44,461 nt of DNA from a virus, in IMG/VR virus record IMGVR_UViG_3300009154_002012, positions 1 through 44,461 of that record. One strand, given 5' to 3'. The notes under the pieces are model-generated. The model was not told where the DNA came from. It did not search any database and saw nothing but the letters and a program-made list of their open reading frames with translations. Position numbers and translations under genes: made by a program. Of the stretch, positions 1 through 39,721 are shown piece after piece. Position 1 is the first letter of the stretch, and each line of letters starts with the position of its first letter.

Positions 1-519
1 CTTTCATATGTTGTTGAACAATGGATGGAAGAAAACCAAATCGCAATCGAAACTGGTCTACGTGCAGAACTAACAGAAGACTTTATTGGTGGCTTGCGTA
101 ACCTATTCGCAGAACACTATATTGATGTTCCTGCCGAAAAGATTGACCTCGTTGATGAACTTGCTGGTAAAGTTGAAGAACTGGAAGGCAAACTTAACGA
201 AGAAATCGAGCGTGGTGTATCATATGCTAAGGCATTAGTTGAATCACGTAAGAGTGAAATTGCTCGTGAAGTTACTGAAGGACTCACTGCCACTCAAGCT
301 GAAAAAATCAAATCACTCGCAGAGGGTGTAGAATTCTCCACAGAGGACGAATACCAATCAAAGCTTGAAACAATCCGTGAAAATTACTTCCCATCTGGCA
401 CTAAGAAAGCCAATGCGTCACAACTACACGAACAGTTTGAAGAAGAGGACGAAAAGAAAGTCATTAATGACCCATTCGTTGCTGCTGTCTCACAAGCAAT
501 TTCTAAATCAAAATTTTAA
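1..519 (+). CDS. 22: Prohead core scaffold protein, gp22-like (5' end missing)
   Basis: This is the C-terminal part of the T4-type internal scaffold on which the prohead shell assembles; the prohead protease later degrades it. The frame is open from base 1 (residues LSYVVEQWMEEN...), so the gene starts upstream and the ATG at 25 is internal. The pattern W-M-E-E-N-x-x-A-I-E-x-G-L-R followed by F-I-x-G-L-x-x-L-F matches T4 gp22 as I remember it. The rest is acidic and probably alpha-helical or coiled-coil (LAGKVEELEGKL), as expected for a scaffold. It lies 24 bases before the major capsid gene, the classic 22-23 order. The identification rests on motif, composition and position. Confidence 0.85.
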   Translation, partial: LSYVVEQWMEENQIAIETGLRAELTEDFIGGLRNLFAEHYIDVPAEKIDLVDELAGKVEELEGKLNEEIERGVSYAKALVESRKSEIAREVTEGLTATQAEKIKSLAEGVEFSTEDEYQSKLETIRENYFPSGTKKANASQLHEQFEEEDEKKVINDPFVAAVSQAISKSKF

Positions 520-543: not shown

Positions 544-1872
544 ATGTATTTGTCCGAAGACCTACAAAGAAAATGGGAAGGCGTATTAGACCACGCTGAC
601 CTCCCAAAAATTAATGACCCATACAAACGTGCGGTTACTGCTGTTGTTTTAGAAAATCAAGCAACAGAAATGATGAAATCAGGAATGATTAACGAAGCTG
701 TGCCAACTAACTCTGCTGGTACAGGCGGTTTCGGTGGTGGTGCAACTGCAGCAGGTCCTGTTGCCGGTTTCGACCCAATCTTAATCAGTTTGGTTCGCCG
801 TTCATTACCTAACTTGATTGCATACGATATCTGCGGTGTTCAACCAATGACAGGTCCAACAGGCTTGATTTTCGCAATGCGTTCAGTTTATGGTTCACAA
901 ACACAATCAGCAACTAACGAAGCATTCTACAACGAAGCTAATACTGCTTTCTCTGGTGGTGCAACACAGACTCAAGGTACTCTTGCTACTGGTCTTGGTG
1001 GTTCTACTAACAACACTTTTGCGAACACAATCTTCTCTAACTCTCAGCCATATTTGACTGCAGCAGGCGAAGATAATCCGTTCCGTGAAATGGGTTTCTC
1101 AATTGAGAAAGTTACAGTAACTGCTAACACACGTGCTCTAAAAGCAGAATACTCAATCGAACTTGCACAAGACTTGAAAGCAGTTCACGGTTTAGATGCA
1201 GAAACAGAATTGTCAAACATTCTTTCTGCTGAAATTCTTGCTGAGATTAACCGTGAAGTTGTTCGTACAATCTACGGTACTGCTGTTACAGGCGCACAAA
1301 TCGGTACTACAACTGTTGGTACATTCGACTTAGACACTGACTCTAACGGTCGTTGGATGGTTGAAAAAGTTAAAGGTCTTGCATTCCAGATTGAACGTGA
1401 AGCTAACGCAATTGCTAAAGCTACACGTCGTGGTAAAGGTAATATCATGATTTGTTCTTCAGATGTTGCATCTGCATTGGCAATGGCTGGTATCCTTGAC
1501 TACAACTCTGCATTGACTTCTCAAGTTAACTTGACTGTTGATGATACAGGCAATACATTTGCTGGTACATTGTTCGGTCGTATCAAAGTTTACATTGATC
1601 CATATTTCATTGCAACTGGTACATCTGAGTTTGCCGTTATCGGTTACAAAGGTACTAACGCATATGATGCTGGTCTATTCTATTGCCCTTACGTTCCTCT
1701 ACAAATGGTTCGTGCAGTTGATACAACAACATTCCAACCAAAAATTGGTTTCAAGACTCGTTACGGCATGGTTGCTAACCCATTTGCACAAGGCACAACA
1801 CAAGGTGTTGGTAAATTTGCAGTATTGACAAACAACTACTATCGTGCGTTTGTTGTTAAGAACATCATGTAA
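544..1872 (+). CDS. 23: Major capsid protein, gp23-like
   Basis: This protein forms the hexamers of the T4-like icosahedral head. It has 442 residues, shorter than T4 gp23 (521). It follows the gp22 gene and has a strong ribosome binding site (AGGAG at 532-536). A prohead-protease type site, I49-N50-E51 followed by A52, lies at the end of the helical N-terminal peptide and fits the (L/I)-x-E rule, so mature protein should begin near A52. The segment GFDPILISLVRRSLPNLIAY and the following DICGVQPMTGPTG are typical of the family. Codon use is optimised (many GGT, GCA and AAC codons), as expected for the most abundant virion protein. A strong terminator follows the gene. Confidence 0.96.
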   Translation: MYLSEDLQRKWEGVLDHADLPKINDPYKRAVTAVVLENQATEMMKSGMINEAVPTNSAGTGGFGGGATAAGPVAGFDPILISLVRRSLPNLIAYDICGVQPMTGPTGLIFAMRSVYGSQTQSATNEAFYNEANTAFSGGATQTQGTLATGLGGSTNNTFANTIFSNSQPYLTAAGEDNPFREMGFSIEKVTVTANTRALKAEYSIELAQDLKAVHGLDAETELSNILSAEILAEINREVVRTIYGTAVTGAQIGTTTVGTFDLDTDSNGRWMVEKVKGLAFQIEREANAIAKATRRGKGNIMICSSDVASALAMAGILDYNSALTSQVNLTVDDTGNTFAGTLFGRIKVYIDPYFIATGTSEFAVIGYKGTNAYDAGLFYCPYVPLQMVRAVDTTTFQPKIGFKTRYGMVANPFAQGTTQGVGKFAVLTNNYYRAFVVKNIM

Positions 1873-22594: not shown

Positions 22595-22919
22595 TGCAGA
22601 AGTTGTTGATGTTTGTAAGAACGGTGATGCAATACTTCAATTCTCAGATGAAATGATTAAAGACCTTGGCTGGAAACCAGGTGATGTAATCAAAATTTCA
22701 ATGATAGAAGGTGTAGTGCATTTGAAAAATATTACTAAAGAGAAAGAAAATATGGCTAAGAAAAAAATTGTTCTCTATGAACAAGCACCTTACATACAGG
22801 GTTATAATTCTGCAATAACTAAAGAAGAATTTTATAATCCTTATGATGATGTTGAAAATGCAGAAGCAGATGCAGAAGATTATGCTCGTGGTTATGATAA
22901 TGGTTCAGAGGTTGAATGA
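22581..22919 (+). CDS. AbrB/SpoVT-like DNA-binding domain protein
   Basis: Residues 1-52 match the swapped-hairpin AbrB fold (AEVVDVCKNGDAILQFSDEMIKDLGWKPGDVIKISMIEG), with the diagnostic L-G-W-K-P-G-D-V-I. The remaining half is acidic (DDVENAEADAEDYARGYD) and could also be made separately from an internal ATG at 22752. I choose the TTG start at 22581 because AGGAG (22570-22574) stands six bases before it and the domain would otherwise be cut. It overlaps the deaminase end and the next gene start. A regulatory or toxin-antitoxin-like role is possible but not shown. Confidence 0.68.
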   Translation: MKKYSAEVVDVCKNGDAILQFSDEMIKDLGWKPGDVIKISMIEGVVHLKNITKEKENMAKKKIVLYEQAPYIQGYNSAITKEEFYNPYDDVENAEADAEDYARGYDNGSEVE

Positions 22920-23395
22920 GTATGTTAGTTATGCCAGATAATATGATTGGTAAACCAGTAGGTTTTACCTGTTCAACTTTTGATTTACTTCATGCAGGAC
23001 ATATTCTTATGTTGGCTGAATGTAAACAAGTTTGTGACTACTTGATTGTTGGTGTTCAAAGTGACCCAACTATTGATAGACCAGGAACTAAAAACAAACC
23101 AGTACAGTCTATTGTTGAACGACATGTCCAACTCTCTGCGGTTAAGTTTGTAGATGAAATTATTGTCTACAACACCGAAAAAGACTTAGAAGATATGTTG
23201 ATGTTTCTTCCGATTGGTGTTCGCATCATTGGTGAAGAATATAAAGACAAAGATTTTACAGGTAAACAAATCTGTGAAGACCGTGGTATCAAAATTTGGT
23301 ACAATTCCCGTTCACATCGTTTCAGTTCTTCCGAATTGAGACAACGAACATATCAATCAGAAGTGACTAGAAATTTTGGAAAATCAAATGAGTAA
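22916..23395 (+). CDS. Cytidylyltransferase-like nucleotidyltransferase
   Basis: This is a Rossmann-like nucleotidyltransferase of the glycerol-3-phosphate cytidylyltransferase (TagD) type. The nucleotide-binding H-x-G-H is in FDLLHAGHILML, and the second signature, equivalent to R-T-x-G-I-S-T-T, is RSHRFSSSELRQR near the C-terminus. Length is 159 residues, one domain. The activated product could be a CDP-alcohol or CDP-sugar for surface polymers; the acceptor substrate is unknown. It overlaps its upstream neighbour by four bases and the MazG-like gene downstream by eight. Confidence 0.82.
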   Translation: MSMLVMPDNMIGKPVGFTCSTFDLLHAGHILMLAECKQVCDYLIVGVQSDPTIDRPGTKNKPVQSIVERHVQLSAVKFVDEIIVYNTEKDLEDMLMFLPIGVRIIGEEYKDKDFTGKQICEDRGIKIWYNSRSHRFSSSELRQRTYQSEVTRNFGKSNE

Positions 23396-32630: not shown

Positions 32631-33890
32631 ATGGCAGACTCACCAAAAGAAGGCGAAGCGGCTCAAGCATTATTTTGTGCTATTGCAGATTACTTAGGTT
32701 ATGCAAAGGTTCAAAAAGAATTCGATTTAACTAAACTTCCGACTTATAACGATTTCAAAAAACATTATGGTAAAGTCATAGATGATTGTTATGCTAAAAC
32801 GAACATGCCGCAGATTACTTTAAAACAGATTGAATCTTTTTTAAATACTGCTGATGGCTGGTATGAATCATCACTTAATATTGCTAAGAAATTGATACAT
32901 GATATTAAAACTATCAGTACAAAATTTTCTAAAATACAAGCACCTAAATGGCAAGATATAATGTATGTTCGTGGTGGCGCAAAAGAAAAAGGTAGGTCCT
33001 CAAACGCTATGGAAAATGTAGCTTCACTTTTTGATGTTGCGAACAAAAATGATGGTGGTTATTTTGGTGATATTAATAAATGGAGCCCTGCTGACATATA
33101 CTTTGTGTCGAAGAAAGCTGAAACTACTATTTTAAGTGAAATTACTTTGGCTACTGGTAAGTTAGCAAAGTCATATAATTTTGTCAATCTTAATAAACTA
33201 ATAGGTACTTTAGTTGATAGTGGTGATTTATTGCCACTTTCCTTAAAGAAGGCGGAACATGAAGTTCATCTAGTAAAAGTAAACTTCAAAAGGTCCGATG
33301 AGGAAAAATATTTAGGTGATATTAAGTATTATGGAATTAGTGATTGGAGTAAAAAATACACCAGAGATAAACCAGTGACAAGAGATATAAAAATATACTT
33401 TAGTAGAGATAAGAAAGATAAACTTAAAATTCGCCATGACCCATATAGTTCAAATTACGGAGTAAATAAAGCCGTAAAATGTGAGATTGAAGTTACTGGT
33501 GCAGGTGGACGTGGTGGTTCAGTTGTAGGCATTCCTTTAATAAGTCAATTAATATCAAAAGTTGATAAGAAATTTGGTGATGAATTAACTAAAGCTTTCA
33601 ATGATGGTATTAGAAAATATTCGATTGAATTGGAGAAGACCAATAAAGAGTTTAAAGTTAAATCTGGAACAAAATTAAAAAGTCCACAAAAAGAAATGTA
33701 TGATGATGAGAGAGCAACTTTAAGTGCGTTGTATATTTCAAATGCAATTATGCCAGTAATATATAAATGGTTTAAGAGTAATGAATCAGATAAAAAAAGA
33801 GTTCTTCTAAATGAAAAAGTGGTACAAAAGTTCATCGAATATACTTCTAGTAGAACAGAGAAATCTGGTAAATTTGTGATTGCAAAATAA
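32631..33890 (+). CDS. Unknown protein, possible PD-(D/E)XK-type nuclease
   Basis: I do not recognise a named family for this 419-residue protein. Some features recall restriction-endonuclease-like folds: a helix with E8/E10 near the N-terminus (GEAAQALFCAIADYLG), NKWSPADIYFV giving a possible catalytic Asp, then LLPLSLKKAEHEVHLVKVN, where S-L-K-K would be the (D/E/S)xK strand. A C-terminal alpha-rich part follows. G+C falls to about 26-28% in its second half, lower than its neighbours. It follows a methyltransferase gene directly, with its own promoters. The nuclease idea is inference from these patterns. Confidence 0.4.
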   Translation: MADSPKEGEAAQALFCAIADYLGYAKVQKEFDLTKLPTYNDFKKHYGKVIDDCYAKTNMPQITLKQIESFLNTADGWYESSLNIAKKLIHDIKTISTKFSKIQAPKWQDIMYVRGGAKEKGRSSNAMENVASLFDVANKNDGGYFGDINKWSPADIYFVSKKAETTILSEITLATGKLAKSYNFVNLNKLIGTLVDSGDLLPLSLKKAEHEVHLVKVNFKRSDEEKYLGDIKYYGISDWSKKYTRDKPVTRDIKIYFSRDKKDKLKIRHDPYSSNYGVNKAVKCEIEVTGAGGRGGSVVGIPLISQLISKVDKKFGDELTKAFNDGIRKYSIELEKTNKEFKVKSGTKLKSPQKEMYDDERATLSALYISNAIMPVIYKWFKSNESDKKRVLLNEKVVQKFIEYTSSRTEKSGKFVIAK

Positions 33891-33899
33891 AGAACAACC

Positions 33900-35132
33900 A
33901 TGAACTTCACACAATTTTTAACCGAAGCAAAAAAAGAAGGTGCAAATCTTCATCTAGAACACCTTGAGGATGAGATTCTAAATCGTGGTGTTGCTGGCGC
34001 CAGAGATGCAATTAATTTTCTACAGGCATTGAGAGATATGCTTGCTGGCCACTCATCGTCAAAAGTAAATACCACAACAAAGTGGGATGGCTCACCAGCA
34101 ATCTTTTGCGGTATTAATCCAGACAATGGTAAATTCTTTGTTGGTACAAAGGGTGTATTCAATGCAAATGCAAAGTTGAATTATACTGATGCAGACATTG
34201 ATAAGAATCATCCAGGTGAAGGTCTTAATGCAAAACTTAAAGTTGCACTCCGTTATCTTCCAAAACTTGGCATCAAAGGTGTATTGCAAGGTGATATGAT
34301 GTTTGCAAAGGGTGACCTGTCAGAGAAGACACTTGATGGTGAAGACTACATTACATTTCAACCAAACACATTAATCTATGCTGTGCCCTCTGATTCTAAA
34401 CTTGCAAAGACTATGCAGGCTGCACAGCTGGGTGTTGTCTTTCATACTTCATACACAGGTAAAACATTTGCTGATATGAAGGCATCATTCAATATTGATA
34501 TTAAGAATTTAACACCAACTAAAGATGTTTGGTTCCGTGATGCATATTTTACTGATGCATCTGGTACTGCATCATTCACAGAAGAAGAAACAAAAAAAAT
34601 TACCTATATCCTATCTGATATCGGTAGAGTATTCAAACAAACAAACTCAATGTCTATTGGTAGAATTTCTGGTAATGATACAGTTAGAGAATACATTAAG
34701 ACATTCAACAATACCAAAGTGCGTGAAGGGCAAAAGATTACTAATACAGCCGCACACACAAGAGAGTTGATGAAATGGGTTGAAGAAAAACTAAACAAAG
34801 ATATTGTCTCTGCAAAGATGGAGAAGACAAAGAGAGATAAGACTATGATTAAGAATGAAATCATGCGTACTCTCCGTAACAGTGCAAACGATTTGAAAAA
34901 CATATTTGATATGCAGAACAGCATGGTAGATGCCAAGAATATGATTATCAAAAAGTTACAACAGATGAAACAAGTTACAAGTACATTTGTACAAACAGAA
35001 GACGGTTTCAAAGTGACAAATCCAGAAGGTTTTGTTGCAGTTGATAAATTAACAGGCAACGCAGTTAAGTTGGTTGACAGACTTGAATTTAGTCATTTGA
35101 ATTTCACCGCACAGAAAAATTGGAGTAAATAA
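33900..35132 (+). CDS. Nucleotidyltransferase/ligase-like protein with capsid-targeting N-terminus (DUF6267-like)
   Basis: This 410-residue protein has ligase-superfamily-like motifs in order: K61-W-D63-G64-S (motif I KxDG, the lysine that would carry AMP), FFVGTKG (79-85), GVLQGDMMF (127-135), E376-G-F-V and V389-K390-L (motifs IV/V-like). The first ten residues, MNFTQFLTEA, resemble the T4 internal-protein targeting peptide MKTYQEFIAEA, with an L-T-E site after which the prohead protease could cut. That suggests packaging inside the head. I believe such proteins fall in DUF6267; the enzymatic activity is inferred. No clear ribosome binding site is seen. Confidence 0.6.
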   Translation: MNFTQFLTEAKKEGANLHLEHLEDEILNRGVAGARDAINFLQALRDMLAGHSSSKVNTTTKWDGSPAIFCGINPDNGKFFVGTKGVFNANAKLNYTDADIDKNHPGEGLNAKLKVALRYLPKLGIKGVLQGDMMFAKGDLSEKTLDGEDYITFQPNTLIYAVPSDSKLAKTMQAAQLGVVFHTSYTGKTFADMKASFNIDIKNLTPTKDVWFRDAYFTDASGTASFTEEETKKITYILSDIGRVFKQTNSMSIGRISGNDTVREYIKTFNNTKVREGQKITNTAAHTRELMKWVEEKLNKDIVSAKMEKTKRDKTMIKNEIMRTLRNSANDLKNIFDMQNSMVDAKNMIIKKLQQMKQVTSTFVQTEDGFKVTNPEGFVAVDKLTGNAVKLVDRLEFSHLNFTAQKNWSK

Positions 35133-38096: not shown

Positions 38097-38963
38097 ATGA
38101 GAATTTTGATTACTGGCCACATGGGTTTTGTGGGCAAATATTTTATGCGTAAGTATGCTGAACATGACATTGTGGGTATTGATATCAAAGAAGGCAACGA
38201 CTGCCGAGATTTTTTCAAAACAAATGATAGTTATTTTGACCTAGTAATTCACCTTGCAGCAATTGTTGGTGGTCGTCAAACGATTGAAGGCAACCCACTT
38301 TCAGTCGCAACAGACTTGGCGATTGATTCAGATATGATTCAATGGGCATTAAAAACAAAACCAGGTCGAGTAGTTTATTTCTCCTCATCAGCTGCATATC
38401 CAATTGAACTACAAGACTTGGAAAGAAAAAATAGATTAGTTGAATCTTTTATTGATTTGAAGAAAACAAAAATGCCTGACTTGACATATGGTTGGGCAAA
38501 ACTAACTGGTGAATTCTGTTTACAATTCTTAGAAGAAGCTGGTGTCAGAGTACATGTGTTCAGACCATTCAGTGGGTACGGAACAGACCAAGACTTAGAC
38601 TATCCTTTCCCATCATACATTCATCGTGCAAAGAATTTAATGAACCCATTTGATATTTGGGGTGATGGGCACCAAGTACGTGACTTCATTCACATGCAAG
38701 ATATTGTAGATGCAGTTGATGAAGCAATCAAACAAGACATTCAAGGTCCTGTAAATCTTGGTTCTGGTATCGCAACATCATTTAATGAATTGCAACAAAT
38801 CGTTTGCGGTATTCAAGGATACAATCCAGAAGTTAATCATATCAAAACTGCACCAGTTGGTGTGATGTATCGTGTTTGTCATCCAGATAAAATGTTATCG
38901 TTCTACAAACCAAAAATTAATATCTACGATGGTATCTCTAGAGCATTAAAAGGTGTCATATGA
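38097..38963 (+). CDS. NAD-dependent epimerase/dehydratase (WcaG/GDP-fucose synthase-like)
   Basis: This is a short-chain-type sugar-nucleotide enzyme. NAD(P)-binding is ITGHMGFVGKYF, the catalytic Y-x-x-x-K is Y-G-W-A-K in the middle (TYGWAKLTGEF), and S-S-A-A-Y-P precedes it. The best functional guess is the epimerase/reductase step after GDP-mannose dehydratase, as in GDP-L-fucose synthesis, because a Gmd gene is two genes downstream. Length 288 is a little shorter than bacterial WcaG (about 320). It follows its upstream gene with one base between and overlaps the next by four. Confidence 0.8.
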   Translation: MRILITGHMGFVGKYFMRKYAEHDIVGIDIKEGNDCRDFFKTNDSYFDLVIHLAAIVGGRQTIEGNPLSVATDLAIDSDMIQWALKTKPGRVVYFSSSAAYPIELQDLERKNRLVESFIDLKKTKMPDLTYGWAKLTGEFCLQFLEEAGVRVHVFRPFSGYGTDQDLDYPFPSYIHRAKNLMNPFDIWGDGHQVRDFIHMQDIVDAVDEAIKQDIQGPVNLGSGIATSFNELQQIVCGIQGYNPEVNHIKTAPVGVMYRVCHPDKMLSFYKPKINIYDGISRALKGVI

Positions 38964-39721
38964 AAATTGTAATTGTAACTGGTGGATTCGACCCATTACA
39001 TTCAGGTCATATTGCCTATATTAATGCAGCTAGAGCTCTTGGTGATTCTTTAATTATTGGAGTTAATTCTGATGAATGGTTACGTAGAAAGAAAGGGCAA
39101 GAATTTATGCCTTGGGAAGAACGTGCAACTATCATTTCAGCACTTCAAAATGTTGACAGAGTTATTAACTTTGATGACAGTGATAACAGCGCCAAAGATG
39201 TTATTAGAAAAGTAAGAGCAATACATCCAACGGCTCATATAATTTTTGCCAACGGCGGAGATAGAACAAAAGAAAATATTCCAGAAATGGACTTACTTAA
39301 AGAAATGCTTCAGTTAGAATTTGTCTTTGGTGTTGGTGGTGAAAACAAAATGAATTCATCATCATGGATTCTAAAAGAATGGAAAAACCCTAAGACTGAA
39401 AGACAATGGGGACACTATCGTGTTTTACATGAAACACCAACAGTCAAAGTCAAAGAGTTAGTAGTAGAACCAGGCAAATCTTTGAGTATGCAGAAACATT
39501 TTTTGAGAAATGAACACTGGCATATTTCAGAAGGTGTTGCAACTATTACGCAAGAGAGTTCCCATTCTGCAAGAAAGTATCAGTTAGAGGCTCAGAAAAG
39601 TTTAGAGATACCAGTTGGCACATGGCATCAACTATCTAATGAACAAGAAACTGAATTGAAAATTATTGAGATACAGTATGGCGAAAAGTGTATTGAAGAA
39701 GATATTGAAAGAAGAAAATGA
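38960..39721 (+). CDS. Fusion of cytidylyltransferase-like and cupin domains
   Basis: Two domains lie in one 253-residue chain. Residues 1-130 are a nucleotidyltransferase: VTGGFDPLHSGHIAYINAA (H-x-G-H) and GVNSDEWLRRKKG. Residues about 140-253 are a cupin like the C-terminal domain of type II mannose-6-phosphate isomerase/guanylyltransferase: QWGHYRVLHETPTVKVKELVVEPGKSLSMQKHFLRNEHWHISEG, with histidine metal ligands. No linker anomaly or frameshift is seen. It probably activates or isomerises a sugar phosphate for the operon's nucleotide sugar. Confidence 0.78.
   Translation: MKIVIVTGGFDPLHSGHIAYINAARALGDSLIIGVNSDEWLRRKKGQEFMPWEERATIISALQNVDRVINFDDSDNSAKDVIRKVRAIHPTAHIIFANGGDRTKENIPEMDLLKEMLQLEFVFGVGGENKMNSSSWILKEWKNPKTERQWGHYRVLHETPTVKVKELVVEPGKSLSMQKHFLRNEHWHISEGVATITQESSHSARKYQLEAQKSLEIPVGTWHQLSNEQETELKIIEIQYGEKCIEEDIERRK

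Follow-up and report, generated by a model that had tools for sequence, protein, structure and literature searches.

Why should a protein with the motifs of a nucleic acid ligase begin with a peptide like those that address proteins to the heads of T4-like phages? The question is raised by an open reading frame (ORF) in IMG/VR virus record IMGVR_UViG_3300009154_002012, the whole 44,461 nucleotides of which (44.5 kb) are referred to here as the window. The ORF lies on the plus strand at 33900-35132, opens with ATG and encodes 410 amino acids (aa) with the N-terminus MNFTQFLTEA. Its product is a full-length member of DUF6267 (PF19782, 373 bits against a Pfam cut-off of 27, profile positions 1-376 of 376) and also of phrog_455, both families of unknown function. 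A comparison with its relatives supports the N-terminal peptide as a head-packaging tag, and a structural model very strongly suggests a ligase-superfamily fold for the body; that the two together make a head-packaged, injected, end-sealing enzyme of ligase type is a reading to which we give an even chance. The parts of the gene are as follows.

33900-35132, plus strand: DUF6267 gene, predicted ligase-type covalent nucleotidyltransferase with an N-terminal capsid-targeting-like peptide (ORF, PF19782, phrog_455, AlphaFold2 model)
33900-33929, plus strand: capsid-targeting-like peptide MNFTQFLTEA; the prohead protease is predicted to cut after E9, whose codon ends at 33926, and ahead of A10, whose codon starts at 33927 (conservation, comparison with T4, disorder in the model)
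34080-34091, plus strand: motif I, K61-W-D-G64, with the predicted adenylylated lysine; K61, D63 and G64 invariant, K61 ending strand 56-61
34290-34295, plus strand: motif III-like G131-D132 (QGDMM), with D where ligases have E; invariant, in strand 128-136
34581-34961, plus strand: all-helical insert (residues 228-354) that separates the initial part of the nucleotidyltransferase fold from motif IV (model, predicted local distance difference test (pLDDT) mostly >90)
35025-35036, plus strand: motif IV, E376-G-F-V379; E376, G377 and V379 invariant, in strand 377-382
35067-35069, plus strand: motif V lysine K390 (AVKLVDR); K390 and R394 invariant, in strand 388-392

Relatives of DUF6267 were present in 466 phage records of the collection searched, mostly those of T4-like cyanophages, in which the family is named T4-GC71. 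The closest named phages by identity of this protein are Melnitz on Methylophilales (50%), C48C1 (46%) and DLP_6 on Stenotrophomonas (45%); no paper on DUF6267 turned up in the literature searched. Because the loci compared come from metagenomes, many of them as fragments, a gene absent from a locus is weak evidence, and the relatives over which counts were made are not independent by descent.

The preliminary description of this DNA, made from the letters alone, had likened MNFTQFLTEA to the capsid-targeting peptide of T4 internal proteins and had taken L7-T8-E9 for a prohead protease site, and both likenesses hold up in the close relatives. F3, [FY]6, [LI]7 and E9 are kept in all 27 distinct nucleotide versions from close relatives, residues 2, 4, 5 and 8 vary (five residues at position 4, three at position 8), and A, S, G or T stands at position 10. 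The pattern recurs in DUF6267 homologues at about 50% identity despite different linkers, and in the model residues 1-16 are disordered, ahead of the fold. In T4 IPIII, targeting depends on residues 4 and 7 and processing on residues 8 and 10, ten residues being enough (PMC9026906); the window peptide follows this register shifted by one, with F3 and F6 at the targeting and L7 and E9 at the processing positions. In the T4 record ipII and ipIII start MKTYQEFIAE/A, ipI starts MKTFKEF, and gp23 has SFLTEA at residues 61-66. The last contains the known E65/A66 cut of gp23; the string FLTE/A is identical between this site and the window peptide, in which a protease cut after E9 is predicted.

A capsid-targeting-like pattern was defined as [FY]xx[FYLIMW][LIVMT]xE[ASGDNQKE] within the first residues. 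It occurred at 40 of 15,436 internal Met positions (0.26%) and at 206 of 2,394 ORF starts in loci containing DUF6267 (8.6%), at least 115 of these starts being those of DUF6267 genes. A single tag-like start among the approximately 55 genes of the window is unremarkable by itself; it is the conservation that is notable.

The window opens with the gp22 scaffold and gp23 capsid genes, continues through replication genes and ends in glycosyltransferase-type genes; its head genes bear on how such a peptide would be handled.

25-519, plus strand: gp22 prohead core (scaffold) protein, C-terminal part, frame open to the window start (PF25623, 154 bits)
544-1872, plus strand: major capsid protein gp23 with an N-terminal propeptide (PF07068, 460 bits from residue 73)
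694-699, plus strand: predicted gp23 cleavage MINE51/A52, a site of (L/I)-x-E/A type (sequence)

The MINE/A of the window gp23 stands ahead of the folded part and is of the matching cleavage-site type. The window does not extend to the gp21 gene; in the contig of a sister locus (L037) a gp21-type S77 prohead protease is present. In Melnitz-3, a Methylophilales phage, four consecutive genes (15-18, L082:4920-9583) have tag-like starts, MQGFKTFLSEA, MINFSKYITED, MKKFSELTSE and MKKFSEIIEA, and gp23 has FLSE/A. Tag-like N-termini were also seen on an HD_4 protein of RelA/SpoT type (L247:12162-12719), on an adenylate-kinase-like protein (L291:7703-8290) and on an 825-aa protein with CTP_transf_like and weak Pol-beta matches (L252:2512-4989).

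Published virion proteomes give a further view of the tag. A cytidylyltransferase was detected in virions of S-CREM2 (PMC10665884), S-SZBM1 (PMC9146016), S-SCSM1 (PMC9602691; record notes) and S-SM1 (PMC3037559). The tag is present on all four of these proteins, which start MKNFSSFLTEAD in S-CREM2, MRFRQFIIEA in S-SZBM1, MKSFLQFLKEA in S-SCSM1 and MKKFSAFLNEA in S-SM1, as against 18 of the 70 distinct cytidylyltransferases in the loci surveyed. In S-PM2 the cytidylyltransferase follows an untagged DUF6267 in one fused protein of 591 aa, and it was reported as undetected in the S-PM2 virion (PMC3037559). SSCSM1_90, encoded just upstream of the cytidylyltransferase of S-SCSM1, is annotated as a virion protein and is homologous to the product of window 32631-33890 (phrog_1462; hhalign 100%, E 6.6e-48). 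Since it occupies the DUF6267 position it was considered as a DUF6267 protein and rejected (BLASTP E 8.2), being a phrog_1462 protein instead. In the accessible parts of the virion-proteomics papers on S-CREM2, S-SZBM1, S-SCSM1 and S-SM1 we found no mention of the tag.

Several observations weigh against packaging. The preliminary description had suggested looking for the same peptide in related phages; it was found in the close relatives and in homologues at about 50% identity, but cyanophage members such as those of Syn1 (MSNVKQLKHLEH) and S-SZBM1 (MAKNTHLEH) are without it, so that the tag is optional, outside the family core, and the basic job of the enzyme needs no packaging. The accessible published proteomics yielded no virion detection of any DUF6267 protein, the untagged one of S-SZBM1 being missing from the list of 30 virion proteins (PMC9146016), and the authors of the S-CREM2 (PMC10665884) and S-SCSM1 (PMC9602691) studies allow for co-purified contaminants. 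Alternatively, the peptide might be no packaging signal here, and the enzyme might be active only once it has been made during infection, next to the replication genes among which it is encoded. The retention of cyanophage orthologues without the peptide and the S-SZBM1 list would fit such an enzyme, as would the place of the gene, which lies outside the head operon, in the replication region, just after the gp41-type helicase region in the window as in Melnitz, Syn1, S-PM2 and S-SZBM1. The T4 ip genes, however, likewise lie outside the head operon, and the peptide keeps all four of the positions on which T4 IPIII depends, precedes the fold as a disordered stretch and recurs on unrelated neighbouring proteins; moreover, tagged cassette proteins are virion proteins in four phages. 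We consider an unpackaged enzyme unlikely. A head-packaging tag is supported by the kept IPIII-mapped positions, the identity with FLTE/A of T4 gp23 and the virion proteomics of tagged cassette proteins elsewhere, and we hold with good confidence that the protein is packaged in this phage. It would probably be injected with the genome, because it carries the tag that T4-like viruses use for head loading.

What, then, would be delivered? The KxDG and EGFV/K motifs in which the preliminary description had recognized the ATP-dependent ligase superfamily were examined in an alignment of 101 homologues from viral and genome contigs, with 33-79% identity to the window protein, and they stood up well. 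K61, D63, G64, G131, D132, E376, G377, V379, K390 and R394 are invariant, and because K61, D63, G64, E376, G377, V379 and K390 are unchanged across 101 sequences they are constrained positions and not chance matches. K390 is fourteen residues past E376, and EGFV opens strand 377-382 in the model.

An AlphaFold2 model made from this alignment (pLDDT 85.6, predicted template modelling score 0.79) was compared with known structures, a check that had also been proposed beforehand. When VIA-align was run on Foldseek's top 1000 chains, all 50 of the 50 entries listed were RNA or DNA ligases, the best being Naegleria RNA ligase NgrRnl (6vt3; Z 9.0, 3.6 A over 185 residues), with further matches to REL1 (Z 8.3), T4 Rnl1 (Z 7.8) and T4 Rnl2 (Z 7.6).

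The case for a ligase has its own adverse evidence. The best Z of 9.0 is modestly above the range of 7-8 that the tool calls common, and since values of 7-8 are common by chance, the weight rests on the unanimity of the ligase matches and on the placement of the motifs. Foldseek alone gave no significant match for the model, its weak list repeatedly showing DNA ligase IV, REL1, T4 Rnl2 and capping enzymes. No sequence match to any ligase in PDB was obtained with phmmer and hmmsearch, hhalign was not significant against T4 Rnl2 or against gp23 as a control, and a Pfam scan of all 101 DUF6267 members returned no ligase match. Motif III carries D instead of E, motif V is without a second lysine, and the invariant H18, H21, E23 and H182 match no ligase motif. 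Because sequence-profile methods missed the kinship, a ligase-superfamily fold is a structural claim, and identity as an RNA ligase is not established.

In some relatives the gene is interrupted. A split intein lies exactly after KWDG (KWDG/S) in L055:1893-2343 and L054:1112-2232, and also in L056 and L077, with an N-half CVHEDTVILTNNGDMTI... and a C-half ...GYILVHN/S; in L054 a separate endonuclease-like ORF (1473-2132) stands between the halves, which is the 'fractured gene' arrangement. Inteins favour locations of active-site type such as KWDG/S, an observation in favour of the ligase-like fold. At L043:5185-6001, and also in L033, L045, L046, L047 and L057, a GIY-YIG-like ORF (5267-5926 of L043) is inserted at the HLE/H codons of DUF6267; in L043 it is followed, ahead of the body, by a second 5'-end-like stretch (MFNFKNFTMEGSQDVILAEEKSGKNLHLE, then a stop). 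Rfam at its gathering threshold found nothing in the insertions of L043, L054 and L055, nor in the window. These three loci therefore show no catalogued intron, L054 and L055 holding the split intein instead.

Taken on the model, a ligase-superfamily fold is very probable for the body, and a capacity for active adenylyl transfer is likely. That polynucleotide ends are the substrate is a view toward which we lean somewhat. The chief competitor on this last point is a packaged nucleotidyltransferase that would modify a host protein or a small molecule, by AMPylation or a capping-like transfer, and would seal no ends. T4 Alt, an ADP-ribosyltransferase, provides the analogy, and the ligase superfamily includes capping enzymes. 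The change of motif III to GD, the non-ligase invariants H18, H21, E23 and H182, and a modelled structure that has a unique helical insert in place of any known Rnl C-terminal domain would all suit such an enzyme, as would the recurrence of HIGH-type CTP_transf_like proteins, which act on small molecules, as partners or fused domains. The structural neighbours listed, however, are all polynucleotide ligases, with no capping enzyme among the first 50, and in relatives a Pnkp-like end-processing phosphatase adjoins DUF6267. We regard modification of another acceptor as improbable.

The neighbours deserve separate description. In 21 loci a HAD protein starts between 12 bp before and 0.9 kb after the end of DUF6267; it matches the phrog_415 polynucleotide kinase (E 4e-10), and the tag is present on 6 of 12 distinct copies. 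A fusion of DUF6267 with a cytidylyltransferase occurs in S-PM2 and also within the phrog_455 profile. The window itself contains neither a HAD protein nor a DUF6267-type cytidylyltransferase as a neighbour, which counts against the end-sealing reading. Two further cytidylyltransferase-like genes, both untagged, are found in it at 22916-23395 and at 38960-39721, the latter fused to a mannose-6-phosphate isomerase/cupin domain within a glycan gene cluster. On the other side of DUF6267 lies one partner.

32631-33890, plus strand: upstream partner, 419 aa, phrog_1462, T4-GC533 family, possibly a PD-(D/E)XK-like nuclease (KWSPADIY ... LPLSLKK; motif inference)

The invariants of this family are K150-W-x-P-x-D155-I and S204-L-K206, and the protein is possibly a nuclease of PD-(D/E)XK-like type, as far as its sequence goes. 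Across the window and about 215 loci the slot upstream of DUF6267 is hypervariable, with at least 20 unrelated protein clusters beside the conserved ligase-like gene, and several of these proteins have D ... (E/S)-x-K patterns by motif reading (for example VEVKMSH in L096 and VEVKLDLK in L110). A search of the cassette proteins with PADLOC gave no defence-system match. A DNA-directed pair, in which the nuclease-like protein of the upstream slot would cut the DNA of competitors or of the host while phage DNA would be mended or shielded on entry by the ligase-like protein, would draw on this variety of slot proteins with motifs typical of PD-(D/E)XK enzymes and on the phrog_1462 member SSCSM1_90 being a virion protein, but the nuclease label comes from motif reading, with no Pfam or PADLOC match, and an active DNase packaged with the genome would require a control mechanism, which makes this the least credible of the alternatives considered.

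For the preferred reading, that of an injected end-sealing enzyme, the following course may be proposed. There is a strong argument that MNFTQFLTE (residues 1-9) would bind the prohead core as does the capsid-targeting sequence of T4 internal proteins. A gp21-type prohead protease would then cut after E9 to give a mature protein beginning at A10, and this protein would leave the head with the DNA and reach the host ahead of all phage gene expression. There, if the predicted fold is active as its motifs suggest, K61 would take AMP from ATP and pass it to a 5'-phosphate end, which would be sealed. The nature of the nucleic acid is the weakest step; RNA, such as a tRNA cut by a host anticodon nuclease, seems a more likely substrate than DNA. 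In relatives the adjacent downstream Pnkp-like HAD 3'-phosphatase, often tagged, would prepare ends for sealing. Phage ligase-phosphatase pairs have an established role in the repair of tRNA cut by host defence (review PMC7824862), and by analogy the proposed mechanism would fit these known pairs, shifted to the moment of injection. The role of the enzyme is thus probably the repair of nucleic acid cut by host defence. More tentatively, and with the balance somewhat against it, many freshwater and sea T4-like phages may carry a modular, head-packaged repair kit with interchangeable 10-residue tags, consisting of the DUF6267 ligase, the Pnkp-like 3'-phosphatase, nucleotidyltransferases of HIGH or Pol-beta type and the hypervariable nuclease-like protein, which would be injected so as to reverse the work of RNA- or DNA-cutting defences ahead of phage transcription.

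If the preferred reading is true, one address tag serves T4-like marine and freshwater phages for the injection of enzymes, among them a sealing enzyme and the partner that heals the ends, and DUF6267 gains both a function and a delivery route. It would also explain the recurrent cytidylyltransferase of cyanophage proteomics, which the authors could not tell from contamination. With the tag, the injected proteins of uncultured phages could be predicted by a simple rule on sequence, which could be tried on existing mass-spectrometry data.

Among known systems, the ATP-dependent RNA ligases (Naegleria Rnl, T4 Rnl1 and Rnl2, REL1 and Trl1) share with the window protein the nucleotidyltransferase fold, KxDG, EG(F/Y)V and a downstream motif V lysine. 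The window protein differs from them in its lack of sequence-detectable homology, in GD at motif III and in the roughly 127 residues of helical insert that precede motif IV; its model also shows neither a ligase C-terminal domain nor an OB domain as a separate unit. Within its own family (PF19782/phrog_455/T4-GC71) the branch of the window protein is tagged, whereas cyanophage members are untagged and some are fused to a cytidylyltransferase. The virion-associated cytidylyltransferase/NMNAT of cyanophages (T4-GC190) belongs to the same genomic cassette and bears the same N-terminal tag where it is found in virions, but its fold is of the HIGH-type CTP_transf_like kind and is unrelated to the ligase fold. 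Knowledge of the T4 internal proteins goes back decades, and most of them are small restriction inhibitors. IPI, IPII, IPIII and Alt resemble the window protein in an N-terminal targeting peptide of the same residue pattern, with a predicted gp21-type cut, removable and set on unrelated bodies, in a T4-like phage with a head of gp21/gp22/gp23 type. IPI-III are small proteins that inhibit GmrSD restriction enzymes (PMC12373910), whereas the window protein has a ligase-type body. The literature searched held no description of a ligase-type body on such a tag, or of the tag on a set of nucleic-acid or nucleotide enzymes. The tag is known and the type of fold is known; their combination in one protein would take the strategy of the T4 internal proteins in a new direction.
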